Part shown: positions 52,491-62,633 of the stretch, in pieces
How positions within the stretch are numbered: the stretch's first letter is position 1
How the letters are laid out: every line of letters begins with the position of its first letter
Source of the DNA: an uncultured Cocleimonas sp.
Lineage (GTDB): Bacteria; Pseudomonadota; Gammaproteobacteria; Thiotrichales; Thiotrichaceae
Assembly: GCF_947495625.1 (NCBI RefSeq)
Contig: NZ_CANLZW010000005.1
Span: forward strand, 1-64,000
DNA: 64,000 bases
Reading direction: 5' to 3'
Made by a program: the position numbers and the translations under genes
Notes under the pieces: generated by a model
What the model was told of the DNA's origin: nothing
Databases searched by the model: none
What the model saw: the letters and a program-made list of their open reading frames with translations, nothing else

Positions 52491-55400
52491 ATGGTCAGTA
52501 AAACCAATGAACAAGCATTAGAGTCATCTATAGAAAAGTACCTAACAGGCTATTGTTTGGAAGAGTTAGATCAGGTTAAAAGTGATGATTTACCATTCAG
52601 CCTGAATAATGGATATCAATTGGGTTTGCCACAGAACTTTGATGCCCAGTTTGCTATTGATACTAAATTCTTCTGGCAGTTTTTAGAAAATACGCAGAAG
52701 GAAGAGTTAGAAAAAATACAGAAAACGGGTGCTGATTGGCAACGTAAAATTCTGGAGCGTTTTGATCGTTTGGTTAAAAAGAATGGTCTTCTTTCAATTT
52801 TAAAAAAAGGGCTAGCCGTTGACGATGCTTACTTTGATTTAATGTATCCCGCTTCTTTAGCCAGTAGTTCAGATAAAATTAAAGAGAATTTTGAGCAGAA
52901 TATTTTTAGTAGTACTAGACAGGTTCGATATTCAACGATTAATACGCTCGAAGAGATCGACATGGTTTTGTTTATTAATGGCTTGCCATTCGCCTCATTA
53001 GAATTAAAGAATCCATGGACAGGTCAAACAGCGCGTTATCACGGACAAAAGCAATATCGTAATGATCGTGATGTAAAACAACCTCTACTGCAATTTGGCC
53101 GTTGCTTGGTTCATATGGCGGTTGATACTGATGAAGTCTATATGACGACTAAGTTGGCTGGGAAAAGTACTTTCTTTTTGCCATTTAATAAAGGGAATAA
53201 TTCAGGTGCGGGTAATCCACCTAATCCCAATGGTCATAAATCATCGTATTTGTGGGAAGAGGTTTTTAGCAAACTCAGTGTGGCTAATATCATCCAGCAC
53301 TTTGTGCGACTTGATGGCACGAGTAAAGACCCATTAAACAAACGAACCTTGTTTTTCCCGCGTTTCCAACAACTCGATGTGGTACGTAAGTTGATTGCAC
53401 ATACGAGTGAATTCGGCGTTGGACATAGTTATCTAATCCAACATTCGGCGGGTTCGGGTAAATCTAACTCGATCACGTGGGCGGCTTATCAATTAATTGA
53501 AACCTATCCACAATCAATGAATATTCCTGGTGCTAAAGATTTAGAGCATCCGTTATTTGATTCGGTGATTGTAGTTACCGATCGCCGTTTGTTGGATAAG
53601 CAATTACGCGAAAACATAAAAGACTTTTCTGAAGTTAAAAATATAGTAGCCCCCGCATTTAAATCATCCGATCTTCAAGCAGCATTGCAGTCTGGAAAAA
53701 AAATAATCATTACGACAATTCAGAAATTTCCTTTCATTATCGATGGTATCGCAGATCTAAGTGATAAGCGTTTTGCAGTGATCATTGATGAGGCACACAG
53801 CTCACAAAGCGGTTCGGCACATGACAATATGAATCGTGCTATGGGCGGTGGTGCTAATGGAGGAAGTGAGAATAACGAAGAAGAAATAGATACACAGGAT
53901 AAAATTCTGCATGCTATGTCATCGCGGAAAATGAGAGGTAATGCATCTTATTTCGCATTTACAGCAACACCCAAAAATACGACGCTTGAGAAGTTTGGTG
54001 AACGCCAAGCAGATAATAGTTTTAAGGCTTTCCATTTATATTCGATGAAACAAGCTATCGAAGAAGGGTTTATTCTTGATGTGTTGTCTAACTACACAAC
54101 CTATAAGAGTTACTACGAAATTCAAAAATCAATTGAAGATAACCCTTTATTTGATAGTAGTAAGGCACAAAAAAAGCTACGCGCTTTTGTTGAGCAGAAT
54201 CCAGCGACGATAAAAACTAAAGCTGAGATTATGTTGGATCATTTTATTACTAACGTAGTTAATAAAAAACGACTTAGAGGACAAGCGAGGGGGATGATCA
54301 TTACCCAAAGCATTGAGTCTGCTATACGTTATTACAAAGCAATTGAAACCGCCTTGAAAGATAAAGGTTATCCATTCCGTGCTCTTGTGGCTTTTTCTGG
54401 AACAAAGAAAGTAGACGGTATTGAATATACTGAATCCGATTTGAATGGTTTTTCAGAAAATGATACACGCCATTATTTTGATAAAAACTATAAAGGCGAG
54501 AGAGTTCCGAAAGATGTTAACCAGGATAAATACCGTTTATTAATTGTTGCTAATAAATACCTGACTGGATTCGATCAGCCTAAACTTTGCTCGATGTATG
54601 TCGATAAAAAGCTACAAGGAGTTCTAGCAGTACAAGCGTTGTCTCGATTAAATCGTTCTTCACCGAAACTTGGTAAGAGAGCTGAAGATTTATTTGTCTT
54701 GGATTTCTTTAATTCTGTTGATGATATTAAAAACTCTTTTGATCCTTTTTATACATCAACCAGTCTTACCGAGCCAACCGATGTCAATGTTCTGCATGAG
54801 TTAAAAGACTCGCTTGATGAAGTAGGCGTTTATGAGTGGCACGAAGTAGAGAAATTTGTTGAGCTCTATTTTGAAAATGTGGATGCACAGGAACTAAGCC
54901 CAATAATTGATGTGGCGGCTAACCGTTTTAATATCGAACTTGAGCTTGAGGATAAAGATAAGGTAGATTTTAAAATTAAGGCCAAGCAGTTCGTGAAAAT
55001 TTACGGCCAGATGGCATCTATCATGCCTTTTGAAATGGTGACTTGGGAAAAGCTGTTCTGGTTTCTAAAATTTCTAATACCCAAGTTAATAGTAAAAAAT
55101 CCTGATGTTGAAAAAATAGATGAGTTATTGGAAACCGTTGATCTCTCAACCTATGGTTTAGAGCGAACTAAACTCAATCATGGTATTGGGTTAGATGAAA
55201 CGGGAACAGAAGTTCAACCTCAAAATCCAAGTCCACGCGGAGTTCATGGCGGTGATGAGGAAGAAGATCCTCTGGATGAAATTATCAGAACCTTTAACGA
55301 ACGCTGGTTTCAGGGCTGGAGTGCAACACCCGAAGAACAACGCGTGAAACTAGTCCATCTTGCTGACAGTATCAAAGCGCATCCTGACTTCGATGAGAAA

Positions 55401-55571
55401 TATAAAAACAATCCTGATACAACCAATCGGGAAATAGCATTTTCCAAGATTTTCGAAGAAGTTATGCTGAATAATCGCCGTAAAGAATTAGAGCTTTATA
55501 AGCTCTATGTGGGTGATGCTGCATTTAAGAAGTCTATGCAGGAAAGCTTAAGAAGATCTGTTGAGATGTAG
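52491..55571 (+). CDS. hsdR: Type I restriction endonuclease subunit, HsdR
   Basis: A 1026-residue translocase/endonuclease. A PD-(D/E)xK nuclease is visible as Asp157, Glu171 and Lys173 (FASLELKNP). The SF2 motor has Walker A SAGSGKS (319-325), DEAH (VIIDEAHSSQSG), and FTATP. A C-terminal helical region binds HsdM/S. All catalytic residues look intact, so the system is probably active. It starts seven bases after hsdS with a GGGA before ATG. Confidence 0.94.
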   Translation: MVSKTNEQALESSIEKYLTGYCLEELDQVKSDDLPFSLNNGYQLGLPQNFDAQFAIDTKFFWQFLENTQKEELEKIQKTGADWQRKILERFDRLVKKNGLLSILKKGLAVDDAYFDLMYPASLASSSDKIKENFEQNIFSSTRQVRYSTINTLEEIDMVLFINGLPFASLELKNPWTGQTARYHGQKQYRNDRDVKQPLLQFGRCLVHMAVDTDEVYMTTKLAGKSTFFLPFNKGNNSGAGNPPNPNGHKSSYLWEEVFSKLSVANIIQHFVRLDGTSKDPLNKRTLFFPRFQQLDVVRKLIAHTSEFGVGHSYLIQHSAGSGKSNSITWAAYQLIETYPQSMNIPGAKDLEHPLFDSVIVVTDRRLLDKQLRENIKDFSEVKNIVAPAFKSSDLQAALQSGKKIIITTIQKFPFIIDGIADLSDKRFAVIIDEAHSSQSGSAHDNMNRAMGGGANGGSENNEEEIDTQDKILHAMSSRKMRGNASYFAFTATPKNTTLEKFGERQADNSFKAFHLYSMKQAIEEGFILDVLSNYTTYKSYYEIQKSIEDNPLFDSSKAQKKLRAFVEQNPATIKTKAEIMLDHFITNVVNKKRLRGQARGMIITQSIESAIRYYKAIETALKDKGYPFRALVAFSGTKKVDGIEYTESDLNGFSENDTRHYFDKNYKGERVPKDVNQDKYRLLIVANKYLTGFDQPKLCSMYVDKKLQGVLAVQALSRLNRSSPKLGKRAEDLFVLDFFNSVDDIKNSFDPFYTSTSLTEPTDVNVLHELKDSLDEVGVYEWHEVEKFVELYFENVDAQELSPIIDVAANRFNIELELEDKDKVDFKIKAKQFVKIYGQMASIMPFEMVTWEKLFWFLKFLIPKLIVKNPDVEKIDELLETVDLSTYGLERTKLNHGIGLDETGTEVQPQNPSPRGVHGGDEEEDPLDEIIRTFNERWFQGWSATPEEQRVKLVHLADSIKAHPDFDEKYKNNPDTTNREIAFSKIFEEVMLNNRRKELELYKLYVGDAAFKKSMQESLRRSVEM

Positions 55572-55576
55572 TAAAA

Positions 55577-55636
55577 ACACACCCCCCTACTTATAGGCAC
55601 TTTTTCAAAAATATGCCTATAAGTAAAGGAGTGTCA
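55577..55636. repeat. Dispersed G repeat, copy 21 (paired, palindromic)
   Basis: The left arm ACACCCCCCTACTTATAGGC and ACTTTTT are followed by the inverted, partly decayed right arm GCCTATAAGTAAAGGAGTGT. It begins six bases after the hsdR stop in terminator orientation and closes the RM operon. Confidence 0.9.
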
Positions 55637-55768
55637 TTTTTATATTTATTCTAATTGATACAACTTAAAAAGCACAAAAAGCGAACTGTTCTTCTAATTG
55701 TTGGCACAATTAACTTTTGAAGTTAAAGAGAGCAGTGGTCTTATTAATACATTGTTAGAGTATATAAA

Positions 55769-56560
55769 ATGCACATAGCTATAGATGATACTTATGGACC
55801 AGAGAATGACACGGGGTCAAAATTCATTACAGGAAAACGTCGTACTCACGTTGCGGTAGTTTTTCCAGACGAGGATGTTAACAATATTCGTGAGCAGATA
55901 ACTAATTGCTTAGATTATATTGAAAAGCAAACTGGCGTTTTGTCTAAAGAGTTCCACTTTGTAGATATCTATAACAGGAAGGAACCTTGGAATAAATTGC
56001 CAGAACATATGAATCTCATATTTTTTGAGTTTTTTGCCGATATATACATTCGCTATCGATGGCCAGTCTATATTCAAACAATTGATGATAGAACCATTGA
56101 CGATCATAACTTTAGTCAATTACCAAAGAAAATTGAACGCCTAAATCTTTCGAAACGTGATGACCAATCAGTATTTTTTTTGTTGCTTCAAATTAAGATA
56201 GATCATAAGGGTAACCCTACTCCAATTAATGTCTTTTTAGACGAGGGGAAATGTAAACCAGGTACTAGTATTGGACAAATTATTTTTCATGATTGGACTG
56301 AACCATATAATGGAAGTTATTGCTCATCAGAGACTGAGCCACTTTTACAGATTGCTGATTTTCTTGGTTATTCAATCAATAGATCAACATATTTATCAAC
56401 AAAGAAAAATCGTACAAATATAGATAATTGGTTCATTGACCTTGTTCATAGCATGAAAATTAACTCAAAACATATACAAAGCTTTACTTTCTCAGAGGAT
56501 TTTAGTGTTGCCGATTTAGACGAATTTCATAGCAAAGATAGAAAAAATAAAGGGTTGTAA
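55769..56560 (+). CDS. DUF3800 protein
   Basis: A 263-residue protein with the DUF3800 pattern: an N-terminal acidic IAIDDTYGP strand, a VFLDEGK middle strand and a LLQIADFLGYSINR helix. These proteins are predicted RNase H-fold nucleases, often in defence islands. It lies beside the RM genes, after the palindromic repeat. The Shine-Dalgarno is weak. Confidence 0.8.
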   Translation: MHIAIDDTYGPENDTGSKFITGKRRTHVAVVFPDEDVNNIREQITNCLDYIEKQTGVLSKEFHFVDIYNRKEPWNKLPEHMNLIFFEFFADIYIRYRWPVYIQTIDDRTIDDHNFSQLPKKIERLNLSKRDDQSVFFLLLQIKIDHKGNPTPINVFLDEGKCKPGTSIGQIIFHDWTEPYNGSYCSSETEPLLQIADFLGYSINRSTYLSTKKNRTNIDNWFIDLVHSMKINSKHIQSFTFSEDFSVADLDEFHSKDRKNKGL

Positions 56561-56639
56561 TACTCTACGAACTAATGAATTAGGTTACTCGCAGAGTTAT
56601 ATGTCTGCGACGTAAAAGGGGAAATTCACAGAATATAAA

Positions 56640-56714
56640 AAGAGCCTCGCAAAACATAAATTCCAATCTCGTTTTGAAAAAAAACGAGTTGTCATTCAAA
56701 AGTAGGGGGGTGAC
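56640..56714 (+). repeat. Composite element E with G6 repeat copy 22
   Basis: CCTCGCAAAACATAAATTCC resembles blocks of elements A and D. An ACGAG-type hairpin (CTCGTTTTG and AAAACGAG) precedes TTCAAAAGTAGG with G6 and TGAC. It is 3' of the DUF3800 gene but in the opposite orientation to a terminator. The rest of 56715-57116 shows nothing. Confidence 0.7.
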
Positions 56715-57116
56715 ATTGAGCTTATTTTTAATACGTATAAATATATAAACGGATAGAAACGTAAGGTAATTAATTTAATTCAGTTTTTACTGTTTATCAA
56801 AATTTTGAGATTTCAATGTATTTTTAGTATAGGATTCAACTAATCGCGGGTTTAACGAAACAACTTCCAACGCGGTAACCCGTATACGTAGGTTAGATAA
56901 GCTTGCGCCATCTGACGCATGAGCTAATAACTGTTCTCAAAAAAATCTATTCCTTAATCACGTAACAGCCTTTCTTGGTATATCTAAACAATGTATTCAA
57001 TTTTGTTTTTTGAACTTGTTGAATTGATTCGAGACGAACAATTTAAAAATGGATGTTATGATCTTGTCGAGTATTTTTACTTGTATAGCTGCAAATTAAA
57101 TTTAAGGAGTCATTGA

Positions 57117-57590
57117 ATGAAAAAATTAATCTTACTATCCGTTTTGTTTTTAACTGCTTGTGGTGGGGGTAGTAGCAGTAATGACTTCGATGATTTTGAA
57201 AGCATTAGCGCTCAAAGGATTCAAGGTCCTTGGCTATCTGATTGTTATTACGATGTAGACGGTGATTTCTCTTACAGGGAAGAGATCGAATATTATGGTT
57301 ATGACTATTTTGAAACCCAGTTTTACTTCGATACGGTTGACTGTTCTGGCCCTTCTGATAACGAATATGTTGAAGGTGACATAACTTACTTGGGAGAGTA
57401 TGCAACAAGTATTTGTATCGGCGAGCAATACATAGTTGACAACCTAACGCTTGAAATTGACGGATTCTTTAGTGATATTCGCGGCTTTAAGGGCATTGCA
57501 TGTACTTTTGATAATACGCTGTTTATAGGCGAGACTGACATCGACTCTAGTCGACCTACGTCGGTTGATATTTCGTTTCCTTACTATTAG
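57117..57590 (+). CDS. Small acidic lipoprotein
   Basis: A 157-residue lipoprotein (LFLTAC, lipidated Cys15) followed by GGGSSS and an acidic, aromatic-rich mature part with four further cysteines (GPWLSDCYYD, DTVDCSG, TSICIG, IACTF), which may form disulfides. AAGGAG precedes the start. No family is recognised. Confidence 0.7.
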   Translation: MKKLILLSVLFLTACGGGSSSNDFDDFESISAQRIQGPWLSDCYYDVDGDFSYREEIEYYGYDYFETQFYFDTVDCSGPSDNEYVEGDITYLGEYATSICIGEQYIVDNLTLEIDGFFSDIRGFKGIACTFDNTLFIGETDIDSSRPTSVDISFPYY

Positions 57591-57596
57591 CGGTCG

Positions 57597-57622
57597 GTTG
57601 GGCTGACGTTAGTCAGCCCAAC
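57597..57622 (+). terminator. Perfect hairpin after the lipoprotein gene
   Basis: GTTGGGCTGAC pairs with GTCAGCCCAAC around a GTTA loop, 6 bases after the stop. It lacks a T-run, so termination is only likely. Confidence 0.6.
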
Positions 57623-57737
57623 AATCTACAAGCGTATTCAATTTTGTTTGGGGTTCGTAGCTCACCCACCGCAACTCAATCTTCACAAGAAATGTTTAGC
57701 CCAATCAATTGATCAATAAAAATCCCGACTATATTGA

Positions 57738-57790
57738 CACATTTCATTCGCCCTTCGGGTCGGTGTCGCGATGCTTCTTCGTTCTCTCGC
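57738..57790 (-). repeat. Fragment of a composite element
   Basis: On the minus strand GCGACACCGACCCGAAGGGC and GAATGAAAT resemble the CGACCCGAAGGGTGAGG block of elements B and C. No G6 end is attached. Confidence 0.4.
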
Positions 57791-57915
57791 TTTGCTTGTA
57801 TGATTGTTTCTACCTTAAACTACGATCATAGTTAGGGCATAGTTAGGGTATCGGGAGGCGGAGGCTCATCGCTGCGCCTCAGCTGACTAAGCGTGATTAC
57901 CTTAACCAATTATCA

Positions 57916-57942
57916 GAAAAGTGCCTTAAAGGTGGGGGTGTC
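57916..57942 (+). repeat. Dispersed G repeat, copy 23
   Basis: AAAAGTGCCTTAAAGGTGGG with a G5 tract and TGTC. CCTTTAAGG pairing is retained on the other strand. It is not in terminator orientation for the nearest gene. Confidence 0.8.
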
Positions 57943-58106
57943 ATTTATACTGTGTTTCATACAAACTTTGTTTTCACACTAATAATAAACTCCGTTTAGT
58001 CGCTTAGTGAAAGGCTTAGTGAAAAGAGTAAAGTTTAGCTTCACTGTCTCGGCTTATAAGCCAAAGAGTCAGTGACCAATTTATAATAAAAATAAGAGAA
58101 TATGAC

Positions 58107-58253
58107 ATGAAATCATACGCAGAATGGATTGCTGAAGTACAAGAAATAAGAGCAATAGATTGGTGGGACATTGCAATTATGTCTGAATATTGGTTGAAAG
58201 GTTTGTCACCACAAGAAGCGGTTAATAAACTGTTTTTTTCACCGGCATATTAA
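58107..58253 (+). CDS. Short hypothetical protein (48 residues)
   Basis: It begins MKSYAEWIAEVQEIRAIDWW, is rich in Trp and charged residues, and ends KLFFSPAY. A hairpin terminator follows, which supports expression. AAGAGA is a weak site before ATG. No family is recognised. Confidence 0.45.
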   Translation: MKSYAEWIAEVQEIRAIDWWDIAIMSEYWLKGLSPQEAVNKLFFSPAY

Positions 58254-58280
58254 AGACACCCTGTTGTACCCCACGAAAAG

Positions 58281-58317
58281 TGTCCGCTGTATATAAGCGG
58301 ACCAGAAGGGTTTTTAA
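58281..58317 (+). terminator. Rho-independent terminator
   Basis: TGTCCGCT pairs with AGCGGACA-like sequence (GTCCGCT with AGCGGAC, 58282-58302), followed by GGGTTTTT, after the 48-residue gene. Confidence 0.65.
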
Positions 58318-58426
58318 ACACGCCCGAACCTTCTTTGTTTAATGACTTATGGTTTGTCTATTAATCAATAGGCTTAGACTCGATTGATATTGAAATAACA
58401 GTTTTTTAAAGCAGTCCTGTAGGATA

Positions 58427-58455
58427 CAAAAAGTGCCTGAAACTAGGGGGGTGAC
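58427..58455 (+). repeat. Dispersed G6 repeat, copy 24
   Basis: AAAAAGTGCCTGAAACTAGG with G6 and TGAC in a gene-poor stretch. Confidence 0.85.
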
Positions 58456-58698
58456 TAAAAACGAATCCAATTGTATCGATTTAAAAAATTCACTTTCCAC
58501 TTCGCACTTTCCACATTCAATAGTCATATTTTTTGTCGAGAATTATTATGGTTGCTGTGTAAATAACTCTGATTTAAATGATTTATATGTCGATCAATTT
58601 TAGGTATCTATTCCAATTTTTCCTGCACTAATCTCCCTTAATCTAAACTTAACAAGGACTTAGCGAAATCGGCGCTTTAAATAGGTGTTTTTTTCGAT

Positions 58699-58920
58699 TT
58701 ATACACAAGCAAAAAAGCAAGTGTTAAATTGTCATAAAAATGAAACATCCGCTCTTTTTATGGTTTTATTGATTAATAAGTCGCTGTAAGATATTGAATA
58801 ATATAGGATAATAGCAACTGGTCAAAAATTGACCAATTAGTAAAAACCCCTTTTGTGACGCGGTTCTTAGGATTAATTCACAGTGATATACACAGACTTA
58901 TCCACAGATATTGTGGACAA
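58699..58920. other. Cluster of DnaA-box-like sites
   Basis: TTATACACA (58699-58707), TTATCCACA (58898-58906) and TTGTGGACAA (58911-58920, reverse box) match DnaA boxes. A perfect palindrome TGGTCAA-AAA-TTGACCA lies at 58819-58835. The sequence around is AT-rich. No replication gene is nearby, so this may be an origin relic, a DnaA-titrating site or a chance cluster. Confidence 0.4.
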
Positions 58921-59261
58921 GTTTTGGTGAAAATAATGTCAAGTTTTTTTAATTGCAGAAATGAAAATATTTTTCTGGATTTTATGAACTTTTTAGTGAG
59001 ATAAAATTGTTAAGAGGTGAAAAATCTTGCGCAGGATAAATGTAATTTTCGTTTTTATAGCTGACTCGTAGGACGAGTGATACTCGTTTGTTTTGCGGAG
59101 GTACTTTTATAATAAATAAACGGGTTTGAGACTTTTCGGTCTTGATGGCTAAGTGAATTTTTTATGGTTTCTTTAATGACATTCTCAGTAGCACTTTCAT
59201 TTATATTTTCACTAACTTCTTCTGCCTCCATTTTATTGTAGAGAGCTACTTCATTTTTTAT

Positions 59262-59369
59262 CCGGCCATATAAGCGGCCAAAACCTTTCCTGTGTTTATT
59301 TTTATATGTTTTATTTATATTATAAAACAGATGCTTATGGCATATTTAAAGCGGCCATAAATGCGGCCA
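59262..59369. promoter_or_regulatory. Four GCGGCCATA-type repeats upstream of fic
   Basis: GGCCA occurs at 59264-59268, 59276-59280, 59353-59357 and 59365-59369, in two pairs with 12-base period. They lie 50-160 bases before the Fic gene and could be operator sites. The rest of 58921-59421 shows no confirmed gene. Confidence 0.45.
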
Positions 59370-59421
59370 TAGTTTGATATATGTTAAAGGTCTGACTTTT
59401 TTGATTAGAGAAATATAAATT

Positions 59422-60630
59422 ATGGGTACATCTATTTCGGCGTTGGCTCCCTTTATACCTAGTGATAAAGCTCTGGGGGAGTCGTTATTACCCGATAAGG
59501 CTGTAGATTTAAATAAACAGTCTGCTGGGTTAATGGGGCAATTATCCCCAATAACGCTTGCAACGTTATCGCAATATATGTCTGTCATTAATTCATATTA
59601 TTCTAATCTGATTGAGGGCAATCCGACCCCGCCTCATGAGATTAGGGCGGCACAACGAGAAGAATATAGTGATGATCCATCAAAACGTGATTTACAGATG
59701 GAGTCTTTGGCGCATATTGCCGTTCAACAATGGTTGCGTGAGCAAAGTCATGATCTGGATACGATTTATAGTTCGGAGTTTATTAAAGAATTGCATTTAC
59801 GATTTTATCAACAGGTACCTGAAAGTTTATGGCTGATCAGAAATAACAAAGGTGAAGTGGTTGATAAGGTGGTGCCGGGTGAGTGGCGAAAACGCAGGGT
59901 AGATGTGGGGCGGCATATTGCTCCGGATCATGAAAATGTGGACGACTTAATGAAGCGCTTTTGTGAAATCTACCATCCTAAAAAATATCAGGGTGACCGT
60001 AAGTTGATTGCTGTGATGGCTGCGCATCATCGTTTTGCATGGATTCATCCATTTATTGACGGTAATGGTCGTGTGGGAAGGTTGTTTACTGATGTGGCAT
60101 TAAAAGCTGTCGGTCTAGAAAGCTATGGAGCATGGTGTTTAAGCAGAGGTTTAGCTAAAAGCTCTAATGAATATAAGGCTTTTCTTGCAGCGGCGGATGC
60201 TTCTCGCCAGGGTGACCTTGATGGCCGTGGTGCCTTAACTGAAAAAGGCTTGCTTAACTTTAGTGATTATATGCTGAGTACTGCTATTGATCAGGTTTCG
60301 TATATTAGTGGCTTACTCGACCTTAAAGATTTACGTAAACGTATTAAAAGTTATGTGCTTGCACGCAATGATTATCGTGTACCCGGGATGTCAGAGAGTT
60401 TAAAAACAAATGCTATTTTAGTTTTACATACTGCTTTTATTCATGGAGAGCTTGAACGTGCTGAGGCATTGGAGTTATGTGCGATGCCAGAGCGCAGCGC
60501 GAGACGTTTATTGAGCCAGTTAAAAAGCGAAGGGTTGTTAAGCGAAACTACTAGTAAATCACCTTTGCGTTGGGAGATACCTGAACATGCAGAGCCATGG
60601 TATTTTCCTCAACTTTCACCAGGAATGTAA
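59422..60630 (+). CDS. Fic-family AMP-transferase
   Basis: A 402-residue Fic protein. The core HPFIDGNGRVGR (209-220) holds the catalytic His and the phosphate-binding loop, and SNLIEG (61-66) matches the N-terminal inhibitory [S/T]xxxE[G/N] helix of class II Fic proteins. The rest of the C-terminus looks like a winged-helix (ERSARRLLSQLKSEGLL). Such proteins AMPylate target proteins; the target is unknown. A run of GGCCA sites lies upstream. Confidence 0.9.
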   Translation: MGTSISALAPFIPSDKALGESLLPDKAVDLNKQSAGLMGQLSPITLATLSQYMSVINSYYSNLIEGNPTPPHEIRAAQREEYSDDPSKRDLQMESLAHIAVQQWLREQSHDLDTIYSSEFIKELHLRFYQQVPESLWLIRNNKGEVVDKVVPGEWRKRRVDVGRHIAPDHENVDDLMKRFCEIYHPKKYQGDRKLIAVMAAHHRFAWIHPFIDGNGRVGRLFTDVALKAVGLESYGAWCLSRGLAKSSNEYKAFLAAADASRQGDLDGRGALTEKGLLNFSDYMLSTAIDQVSYISGLLDLKDLRKRIKSYVLARNDYRVPGMSESLKTNAILVLHTAFIHGELERAEALELCAMPERSARRLLSQLKSEGLLSETTSKSPLRWEIPEHAEPWYFPQLSPGM

Positions 60631-60903: not shown

Positions 60904-62319
60904 ATGAAACTGACTAAAACACTAATCGCCACTGCTTTGACATTTTTTTCTTATAATGCTTTCGCGAGTGAGAATGAAAATAATGCGCATGAGGAGGGGG
61001 AGAAATTATACCAGGCGCAGTGTGAGTCTTGCCATGGAGCTACGGGCGGTATGGATATTGATAAACGTATTGCGCCACCGATTGCGGGCGTTAGGATGCA
61101 CTACGTTAGCGTTCATCCGGATAAGGATGCGTTTGTTGCTGCGGTTAGCGGCTGGCTGGCGAGTCAGGATGAGGCTAAAAGCCTGATGCCTGGGGCGATT
61201 CAACGATTTAAACTGATGCCACCCCTTGAGATTGCGCTTGAGGATGCTGAAAAAATTGCAGCCTATATCTATGAAGGTGATATTGAAAAGCTTGAGGGCT
61301 TTGATAAACACGTTGAAGAGATGCATGGCAAAGGTATGCAGGGAATGACCTGTAATGAAATGCAAGGCAAAGGCCAAGATGAGGATCAAGAACAAGGTCA
61401 GGGTCAAAGCCAAGGTCAGGGAATGAATTGTAAAGGCATGCATGGCAAAGGCATGTACGGAAAAGGTCAGGGAATGCATGGCAAGGGTATGAACGGAAAG
61501 GGTATGCAAGGAAATGGTCAGGGAATGTATTGCAAAGGCATGCACGGAATGGGTCAGGGAATGTATGGCAAAGGTATGAACGGAAAGGCTATGCACGGAA
61601 TGGGTAAAGGAATGCATGGCAATAATATGCATGGAATGAATATGCCAAATATGGGCAATATGGCAGGTAATGGAATGCACGGCATGATGCCTAAAATGGG
61701 TACTAAGCCTCGTGGACCTGGAATCTCACCTGCTGATATGAAAGCCAAATTGATGCAACAGTTTAATCTTTCTGCGGAACAGATGGCGAAAATGGAAACC
61801 CTGATGCAGGAGAAAAGCGCCACCATGCAATCGTTAAGTCAGCAACAGCACGCTTTAAAACAGAAATTCATGGCACTTGATACCAGCAGCCCAAGTTATA
61901 AAGCAGATATCTTTGCTCTGGCAAAAGAGGAAGCAACACTGGCAAGCCGCAAGACAGTCGAAAAAGGTGAAATGCGCTTTAAAATGGATTCACTGTTAAG
62001 CCCAGAGCAACGTCAAAGGTTCGCACAGATGAGAGCCAGAAAAACCGAAATGAAACAGCGTATGCGTCAAAGAATACATCACAGTATGAAAAACCGAATG
62101 AATCAAGGTATGAATAACGGAATGCCATCAAACGGAATGCCGAATATGAGTATGCCTTCAATGCGTATGCCATCTAGTGAAATGCCGTCATGGGAAATGT
62201 ACCAAGGCCAAATGCCAGAGATGAAAATGCCAACTATTGGCAATCCTCCACTGTCTATCCCTGAAATGGAAAAGCCAGAAGCGACAGCTCCAGAAGCAAC
62301 ACCGCCAAAGAGTGAGTAA
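60904..62319 (+). CDS. Cytochrome c/Met-rich/Spy-like fusion protein
   Basis: A 471-residue periplasmic protein. A signal peptide (about 1-21) precedes a cytochrome c domain with CESCH (Cys40, Cys43, His44) and a candidate distal Met (LMPP, Met105). Residues 140-265 are Met/Gly/Lys/His-rich (GMHGKGMYGKG-type repeats with extra cysteines), typical of copper or other metal binding. Residues 275-395 contain two LSxEQ motifs (LSAEQ 289-293, LSPEQ 365-369) and a helix pair like Spy/CpxP metal-sensing chaperones. The tail is Met/Pro-rich. AGGA precedes ATG. It is a fusion I do not recognise; metal sensing, scavenging or redox transfer is inference. Confidence 0.85.
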   Translation: MKLTKTLIATALTFFSYNAFASENENNAHEEGEKLYQAQCESCHGATGGMDIDKRIAPPIAGVRMHYVSVHPDKDAFVAAVSGWLASQDEAKSLMPGAIQRFKLMPPLEIALEDAEKIAAYIYEGDIEKLEGFDKHVEEMHGKGMQGMTCNEMQGKGQDEDQEQGQGQSQGQGMNCKGMHGKGMYGKGQGMHGKGMNGKGMQGNGQGMYCKGMHGMGQGMYGKGMNGKAMHGMGKGMHGNNMHGMNMPNMGNMAGNGMHGMMPKMGTKPRGPGISPADMKAKLMQQFNLSAEQMAKMETLMQEKSATMQSLSQQQHALKQKFMALDTSSPSYKADIFALAKEEATLASRKTVEKGEMRFKMDSLLSPEQRQRFAQMRARKTEMKQRMRQRIHHSMKNRMNQGMNNGMPSNGMPNMSMPSMRMPSSEMPSWEMYQGQMPEMKMPTIGNPPLSIPEMEKPEATAPEATPPKSE

Positions 62320-62438: not shown

Positions 62439-62633
62439 ATGAAGCCCTTGTTTGAAAAGATACCTATTGAAAGTTTGGTGTATGCGAATCAAGAAGGGTA
62501 TATCGCTAATAATAACAACTCGACCCCCCAAGTGACCCCCCAAGTTACCCCCCAAGTTGAAAAGCTAATTTCTGTGATGGATGAGATAAAGGGGGATGAA
62601 GTCTTTAAAAAAATGTGCCTGAGTTCCGCATAA
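62439..62633 (+). pseudogene. Relic of a Fic-type C-terminal region
   Basis: A 64-residue frame with STPQVTPQVTPQVEKLI, a motif typical of the linker before the C-terminal winged helix of many Fic proteins and related DNA helicases. Nothing of the Fic core precedes it, so it is probably the remaining tail of a lost gene. The Thr-Pro-Gln-Val repeats are encoded by 12-base ACCCCCCAAGTK units. Confidence 0.5.

Follow-up and report, generated by a model that had tools for sequence, protein, structure and literature searches.

What might a bacterium gain from joining a heme-binding cytochrome domain, a methionine-rich low-complexity segment and a Spy-like domain in one polypeptide? The question is raised by a gene of an uncultured Cocleimonas sp. 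(Thiotrichaceae), found in a stretch of 64,000 nucleotides (contig NZ_CANLZW010000005.1) that was analysed as a whole and is referred to here as the window. The open reading frame, coding for 471 aa, occupies exactly positions 60904-62319, uninterrupted and in one reading frame, and an assembly join, a frameshift or chance as the source of the fusion is ruled out by ten other proteins with the same domain order. A preliminary description, made from the DNA letters, had proposed a single secreted protein with heme c, a low-complexity run containing cysteines, two LSxEQ motifs and a Met/Pro tail, and the ORF and domain analyses agree with this. The protein represents a new architecture built of two known families and conserved in a small clade, for which we infer a function below.

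Domain organization of the fusion protein

The features of the protein are listed in Table 1. The cytochrome region has a single CXXCH motif (C40-H44) and matches the Pfam families Cytochrome_CBB3 (E=2e-5) and Cytochrom_C (E=5e-4, with a score above its cut-off) at residues 28-122; no NCBIfam model names the module. When the N-terminal part was modelled alone, the confidence was high (pLDDT 92) and Foldseek retrieved NorC, c551 and related cytochromes with probabilities of up to 0.98. The position of CXXCH near the N-terminus, the later Met ligand and the order of the helices are those of class I cytochromes c, and by the usual class I pattern Met105 is the likelier axial heme ligand than Met95. 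His66 is also invariant in the 40 cytochrome homologues. Together with H136-x4-H141 it may form an extra metal or partner site, and these three histidines would be the best candidates for such a site, ahead of the variable linker.

Table 1. Features of the cytochrome c-linker-Spy fusion gene and its product (window coordinates)
Feature	Position	Strand	Basis or remark
Cytochrome c - Met-rich linker - Spy-like protein, type A fusion, 471 aa	60904..62319	+	Intact ORF; homologues with the same order
Sec signal peptide, residues 1-22	60904..60969	+	By eye, MKLTKTLIATALTFFSYNAFA; homologues have similar hydrophobic N-termini
Class I cytochrome c domain, residues 30-141	60991..61326	+	Pfam; AlphaFold2 pLDDT ~90; Foldseek (NorC, c551, Rhodothermus cytochrome c)
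Heme-binding motif CESCH, residues 40-44	61021..61035	+	Sequence; C40, C43 and H44 invariant in 40 homologues
Met95, one of two candidate axial heme ligands	61186..61188	+	Invariant in 40 homologues
Met105 (MPP), candidate axial heme ligand	61216..61218	+	Invariant in 40 homologues
H136-x4-H141, past the last cytochrome helices	61309..61326	+	H136 invariant, H141 at least 90% (40 homologues)
Disordered Gly/Met/Lys/Gln-rich linker with three Cys, residues 142-269	61327..61710	+	pLDDT <50 over 146-244; tandem repeats; composition
Spy/CpxP-like four-helix domain, residues 276-404	61729..62115	+	AlphaFold2; Foldseek; LTXXQ; PDB profile search
First LTxxQ-type motif, LSAEQ, residue 289	61768..61782	+	Motif L and Q invariant in full-length fusions
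Second LTxxQ-type motif, LSPEQ, residue 365	61996..62010	+	Sequence; family alignment
Met/Pro-rich C-terminal tail, residues 405-471	62116..62316	+	Only in the window protein; tails of other fusions 8-17 aa

An AlphaFold2 model built with 40 homologues predicts the cytochrome and the C-terminal four-helix domain with confidence, leaves the linker and the tail disordered, and gives the two domains no fixed mutual arrangement (pTM 0.41). The C-terminal helices comprise residues 276-287, 291-323, 332-362 and 367-404, with pLDDT >90 over most of their length. Foldseek matched this part to CnrX, ZraP, NccX, Spy and CpxP with probabilities of up to 1.00, at modest E-values of 0.2-2.6 for the full-length query, and a profile of the fused Spy domains found E. 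coli Spy as its top match in the PDB (E=0.002). The window copy scores below the cut-off of the Pfam family LTXXQ (PF07813; residues 280-375, E=0.006, 17.7 bits against 24.3), and the homologue in genome G007 scores above it (E=5e-9, 37.2 bits). Both LTxxQ-type motifs are present, and the L and Q of the first are invariant across the family alignment. A histidine metal site like that of CnrX or ZraP is absent from the fused Spy domains, which contain 0-1 His each and no conserved His or Cys.

The linker of the window protein (128 aa) contains 39 Gly, 26 Met, 13 Lys, 13 Gln, 7 His and 3 Cys (C150, C176 and C210), that is, ~30% Gly and 20% Met, with His at only ~5%. Over the whole protein the counts are 59 Met and 16 His, so that Met far outweighs His and 'Met-rich' is a better name than the 'Met/His-rich' of the preliminary description. 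The 67-aa tail has 14 Pro and 12 Met and contains MPxM repeats. The DNA of the linker includes imperfect tandem repeats of 36, 51 and 87 bp, which suggests that the linker grew by duplication. The preliminary description was to be refuted if the low-complexity part proved to be a variable insertion without conserved function, and this applies by half. Variable it is, ranging from 17 to 135 aa across the 11 fusions and missing the Met enrichment in five of them (type B, see below), but Met/His enrichment recurs in all six type A proteins. When the 586 proteins of the loci are ranked by Met+His density over 60 residues, these six take the first six places. Because this enrichment is found in linkers that cannot be aligned with one another, composition rather than sequence seems to have been kept.

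Similar tails follow unfused cytochromes at three loci (L044, L046 and L069) and occur in a fusion from Bacteroidota (L078), and N-terminal extensions rich in Gly, His and Lys are seen in several free Spy proteins of the family; each half of the fusion may thus have brought such a low-complexity segment. The Bacteroidota protein (L078:5833-6936, Salinimicrobium), from another phylum, has the cytochrome module followed by a separate Gly/Met/Lys/Gln-rich linker and a Tll0287-like domain.

Distribution and two subtypes

The cytochrome-linker-Spy order was identified in 11 proteins from 10 genomes, all of Cocleimonas or near relatives. The preliminary description had proposed a search for it in sulfur oxidizers, and it does recur in other Thiotrichaceae, a family of sulfur oxidizers. 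In a collection of named genomes, the matching loci belong to Cocleimonas flava DSM 24830, to uncultured Cocleimonas, to MAGs of Thiotrichaceae and to one MAG that bears the label Leucothrix mucor. Profile searches of 274 class-level and 398 phylum-level genomes found no fusion beyond the genus and its near relatives; within the same family, only two copies lie outside the Cocleimonas-like genus, both in genus g8. A tblastn search recovered no plasmid-borne copies.

In the tree of Spy domains, the full-length fusions form one clade (support 94/95) within which types A and B separate fully. The fusion therefore probably had a single origin, with which the cytochrome tree, too poorly resolved for counting origins, is compatible. 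Type A consists of the window protein and those of G002, G007, G009, G023 and G029, the last with an internally shortened Spy domain that retains both motifs. These proteins have a Met- or His-rich linker, and their full-length Spy domains are basic (net charge +5 to +13). Type B (G003, G004, G008, G011 and a paralog in the genome of the window) combines a short, Met-free linker with a Spy domain of slightly acidic charge (-1 to -7) and conserved synteny. Given this acidity, client binding may differ between the two types, both of which the genome of the window carries. Its type B gene (G000:C4:42592-43476, corresponding to L021:9493-10404) lies at a position common to C. flava and three other Cocleimonas genomes, flanked by gene clusters 6, 7 and 9 on one side and 8, 10 and 11 on the other.

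Gene neighborhoods

The fusion gene of the window is a single gene, flanked by genes for Fic and for a LysE-type exporter. No cytochrome or stress gene adjoins it, a point against a role in redox and stress defense. Upstream, the region at 52491-60630 is low in GC and encodes a type I restriction HsdR-like protein, a weak DUF3800-like match and Fic, and is possibly a mobile or defense island beside the fusion gene. A small ORF at 62439-62633 with PQVTPQVTPQV repeats has no Pfam match and may be the remnant of a gene of Fic or helicase type.

In three type A genomes (G007, G009 and G002), a gene for a c'-like cytochrome, with an N-terminal hydrophobic stretch resembling a membrane anchor, begins 31-52 bp after the end of the fusion gene. 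Family f198, which belongs to another class of the phylum, has the cytochrome module fused to a c' domain (Cytochrom_C_2 above cut-off). The downstream gene and this fusion together constitute a Rosetta-stone link. As a candidate for the same partner in the genome of the window, the closest match was rejected, being only 24% identical and located on another contig. The f198 fusions occur in many genomes, and at the nine loci that were read (L151-L159) they mostly adjoin an outer-membrane porin-like gene.

Without fusion, the cytochrome module is common in Gammaproteobacteria and also occurs in Bacteroidota and others. It is a widespread mix-and-match unit that occurs either by itself or joined to a Spy, cytochrome c', Ig_CycH or Tll0287-like domain. 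The free-standing genes adjoin di-heme peroxidase (CCP_MauG) and b561 genes. At two loci (L067 and L073) they have RegB/RegA-type redox two-component genes directly upstream, and at four (L025, L027, L035 and L036) a PmrA/PhoP-like two-component pair is adjacent. The clusters of G007 and G005 also hold DUF2202 and an RND efflux pair. These neighbors point to a shared theme of redox and envelope stress, not copper; because they vary, no single pathway is indicated. The peroxidase is present in 16 of 18 genomes and so does not discriminate between them.

Two further arrangements were observed among these loci. In three Flavobacteriaceae (L090-L092), genes for an ECF sigma factor, an anti-sigma-like protein (both named by eye), Metal_resist and a Gly/Met-rich EF-hand repeat protein precede a cytochrome with an unnamed helical C-terminal domain. 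At L026:1719-2534 the module is fused to the Ig-like domain of CycH/CcmI (Ig_CycH E=3e-36), and 58 bp downstream there is a gene resembling di-heme peroxidases.

We saw no two-component or sigma/anti-sigma gene adjoining any of the 11 fusion genes; a LysR-type gene (cluster 9, named by eye) beside the type B fusion is the only adjoining regulator. No copper genes were recognized near the fusions by eye, in a survey that was not systematic. Upstream of the window gene there is no CpxR box (GTAAA-N5-GTAAA, at most one mismatch), matches in the window being at chance level, and sigma-70 sites do not exceed the number in shuffled sequences. The same genome also encodes an ordinary Spy in a Cpx-like locus, next to genes for a response regulator and a kinase of HAMP type, and for this reason the fusion is an addition to the ordinary Spy and not a replacement. 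An ortholog of the kinase that adjoins the free cytochrome elsewhere was sought there and rejected, the best match having 28% identity.

Possible functions

We favor a periplasmic class I cytochrome c with a tethered Spy/CpxP-family domain, serving redox and envelope-stress defense, and assign this reading a probability of roughly 0.45. It builds on what the analysis shows, namely the anatomy, the two predicted folds and a fusion that is conserved in two subtypes. From these we infer that the protein is periplasmic, attaches heme, transfers electrons and acts as a chaperone, and what its linker does. The cytochrome domain would hand electrons from one periplasmic partner to another; in several type A species a probable partner is the c'-like cytochrome whose gene follows immediately. 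The Spy domain could hold or protect stress-damaged proteins or dock partners, and the Met-rich linker could act as a flexible tether that is also able to take oxidation or bind Cu(I). In favor of this reading, both domains are confidently predicted, one matching cytochromes and the other the Spy/CpxP/ZraP/CnrX fold; the fusion has been kept in 11 proteins, with its Spy domains in one clade; and the link to c'-type cytochromes and the redox and stress genes beside the free cytochrome fit it. Against it count the lack of such neighbors in the window, the distant c'-like match in this genome, the acidic Spy domain of type B and the varied surroundings of the free cytochrome.

Alternatively, the protein might be a redox-sensing regulator in which the Spy-like domain restrains a sensor kinase or anti-sigma factor, as CpxP, ZraP and CnrX do, with heme as the redox input. 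The two-component and ECF/anti-sigma/Metal_resist genes beside free cytochromes are what this would lead one to expect, as are the DUF2202 and RND genes of G007 and G005 and the rank of the metal sensor CnrX among the best structural matches. We nevertheless regard it as unlikely: the fusion genes lack such neighbors apart from the LysR-type gene of type B, the genome of the window has no ortholog of the kinase next to the free cytochrome and keeps its separate Spy gene with its own kinase and response regulator, and the fused domains lack CnrX-type His ligands. Less probable again is the copper or iron handling suggested in the preliminary description. In such a role, Cu(I) or Fe would be bound by the linker and tail, and the heme would alter the redox state of the metal. 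A coupling of redox to a stress- or metal-type domain is plausible, which supports that description in part, and the Met+His density of type A, the conserved H66 and H136-x4-H141, and the MPxM repeats of the tail suit metal binding; type B fusions without Met-rich linkers, the small share of His in the linker and the lack of copper genes recognized by eye do not. We give still less credence to a heme-gated chaperone or signal protein, in which the redox state of the cytochrome, or oxidation or metallation of the tether, would switch binding by the Spy domain. If it were correct, the respiratory or oxidant state would directly control periplasmic proteostasis or signaling.

Lowest, and level with each other, we place two readings that center on the linker. 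By analogy, its Met residues could be a sacrificial oxidant sink recycled by methionine sulfoxide reductase, or could protect the Spy domain. Oxidation of its Met residues inactivates E. coli Spy, and MsrPQ repairs it (PMC12503329, PMC4623255), and a periplasmic Met-rich peptide, MrpX, which acts with YedY/YedZ, offers a Met-cycling analogue in the account given by PMC4623255 (citing Melnyk 2015). The 59 Met in 471 aa and the MsrP (E=2e-141) adjoining MsrQ in the genome of the window are consistent with such a sink. These genes lie elsewhere in the genome and do not adjoin the fusion gene, however, and a search confined to the MsrP family did not find MsrP in G002 and G009, with Met-rich type A linkers, but did find it in G003 and G008, two genomes in which type B was the only fusion detected. 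Met cycling with MsrP was rejected, as the presence of MsrP does not track the Met-rich linker. The linker could instead be a neutral, slippage-prone spacer between domains that are co-expressed but functionally uncoupled, a picture that accommodates its variable length, tandem repeats and predicted disorder and the lack of a fixed domain arrangement. Yet the recurrent Met/His enrichment in six proteins that cannot be aligned there, and the conservation of the fusion itself, argue against this.

The conservation of the fusion, its two subtypes in one genome and the occurrence of type B in the cultured Cocleimonas flava would allow a direct test of whether periplasmic redox state affects protein quality control. 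Since the cytochrome module is so widespread a unit, finding its partner would inform many genomes. Full-text literature searches for a combination of Spy and a redox cofactor returned no paper describing one, judged on titles and abstracts, and we know of no characterized Spy-family chaperone joined to a redox cofactor.

Comparison with known systems

The cytochrome module shares CXXCH, the helix order and the region of the Met ligand with class I cytochromes c such as c551 and NorC (PF00034/PF13442), but has its own RxAPPxxxVxxHY and M-x-GAI-x2-F motifs and the C-terminal H-x4-H. With MrpX the fusion has a periplasmic Met-rich segment in common; unlike it, the fusion is not a small peptide, lies outside any msr operon and has its Met-rich segment joined to two folded domains. 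The metal sensors CnrX and ZraP (PDB 3epv, 2y3h and 3lay) have the same fold as the C-terminal domain and are among its best Foldseek matches, whereas they are separate soluble or anchored proteins that adjoin their own regulators, and the fused domain has no conserved His ligands.

The C-terminal half resembles the Spy/CpxP family, with which it shares the four-helix cradle, two LTxxQ-type motifs and secretion (E. coli Spy, PDB 3o39 and 3oeo). In contrast to E. coli Spy, the domain in the window sits behind a cytochrome c and a Met-rich linker, and of the three essential cradle Met of E. coli Spy the window protein has Met only at the position of Met46 (alignment by eye), a residue not conserved in the other fusions. 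The f198 proteins have the same N-terminal cytochrome module followed by a helical C-terminal domain, but in them that domain is a heme-carrying c' and not Spy.
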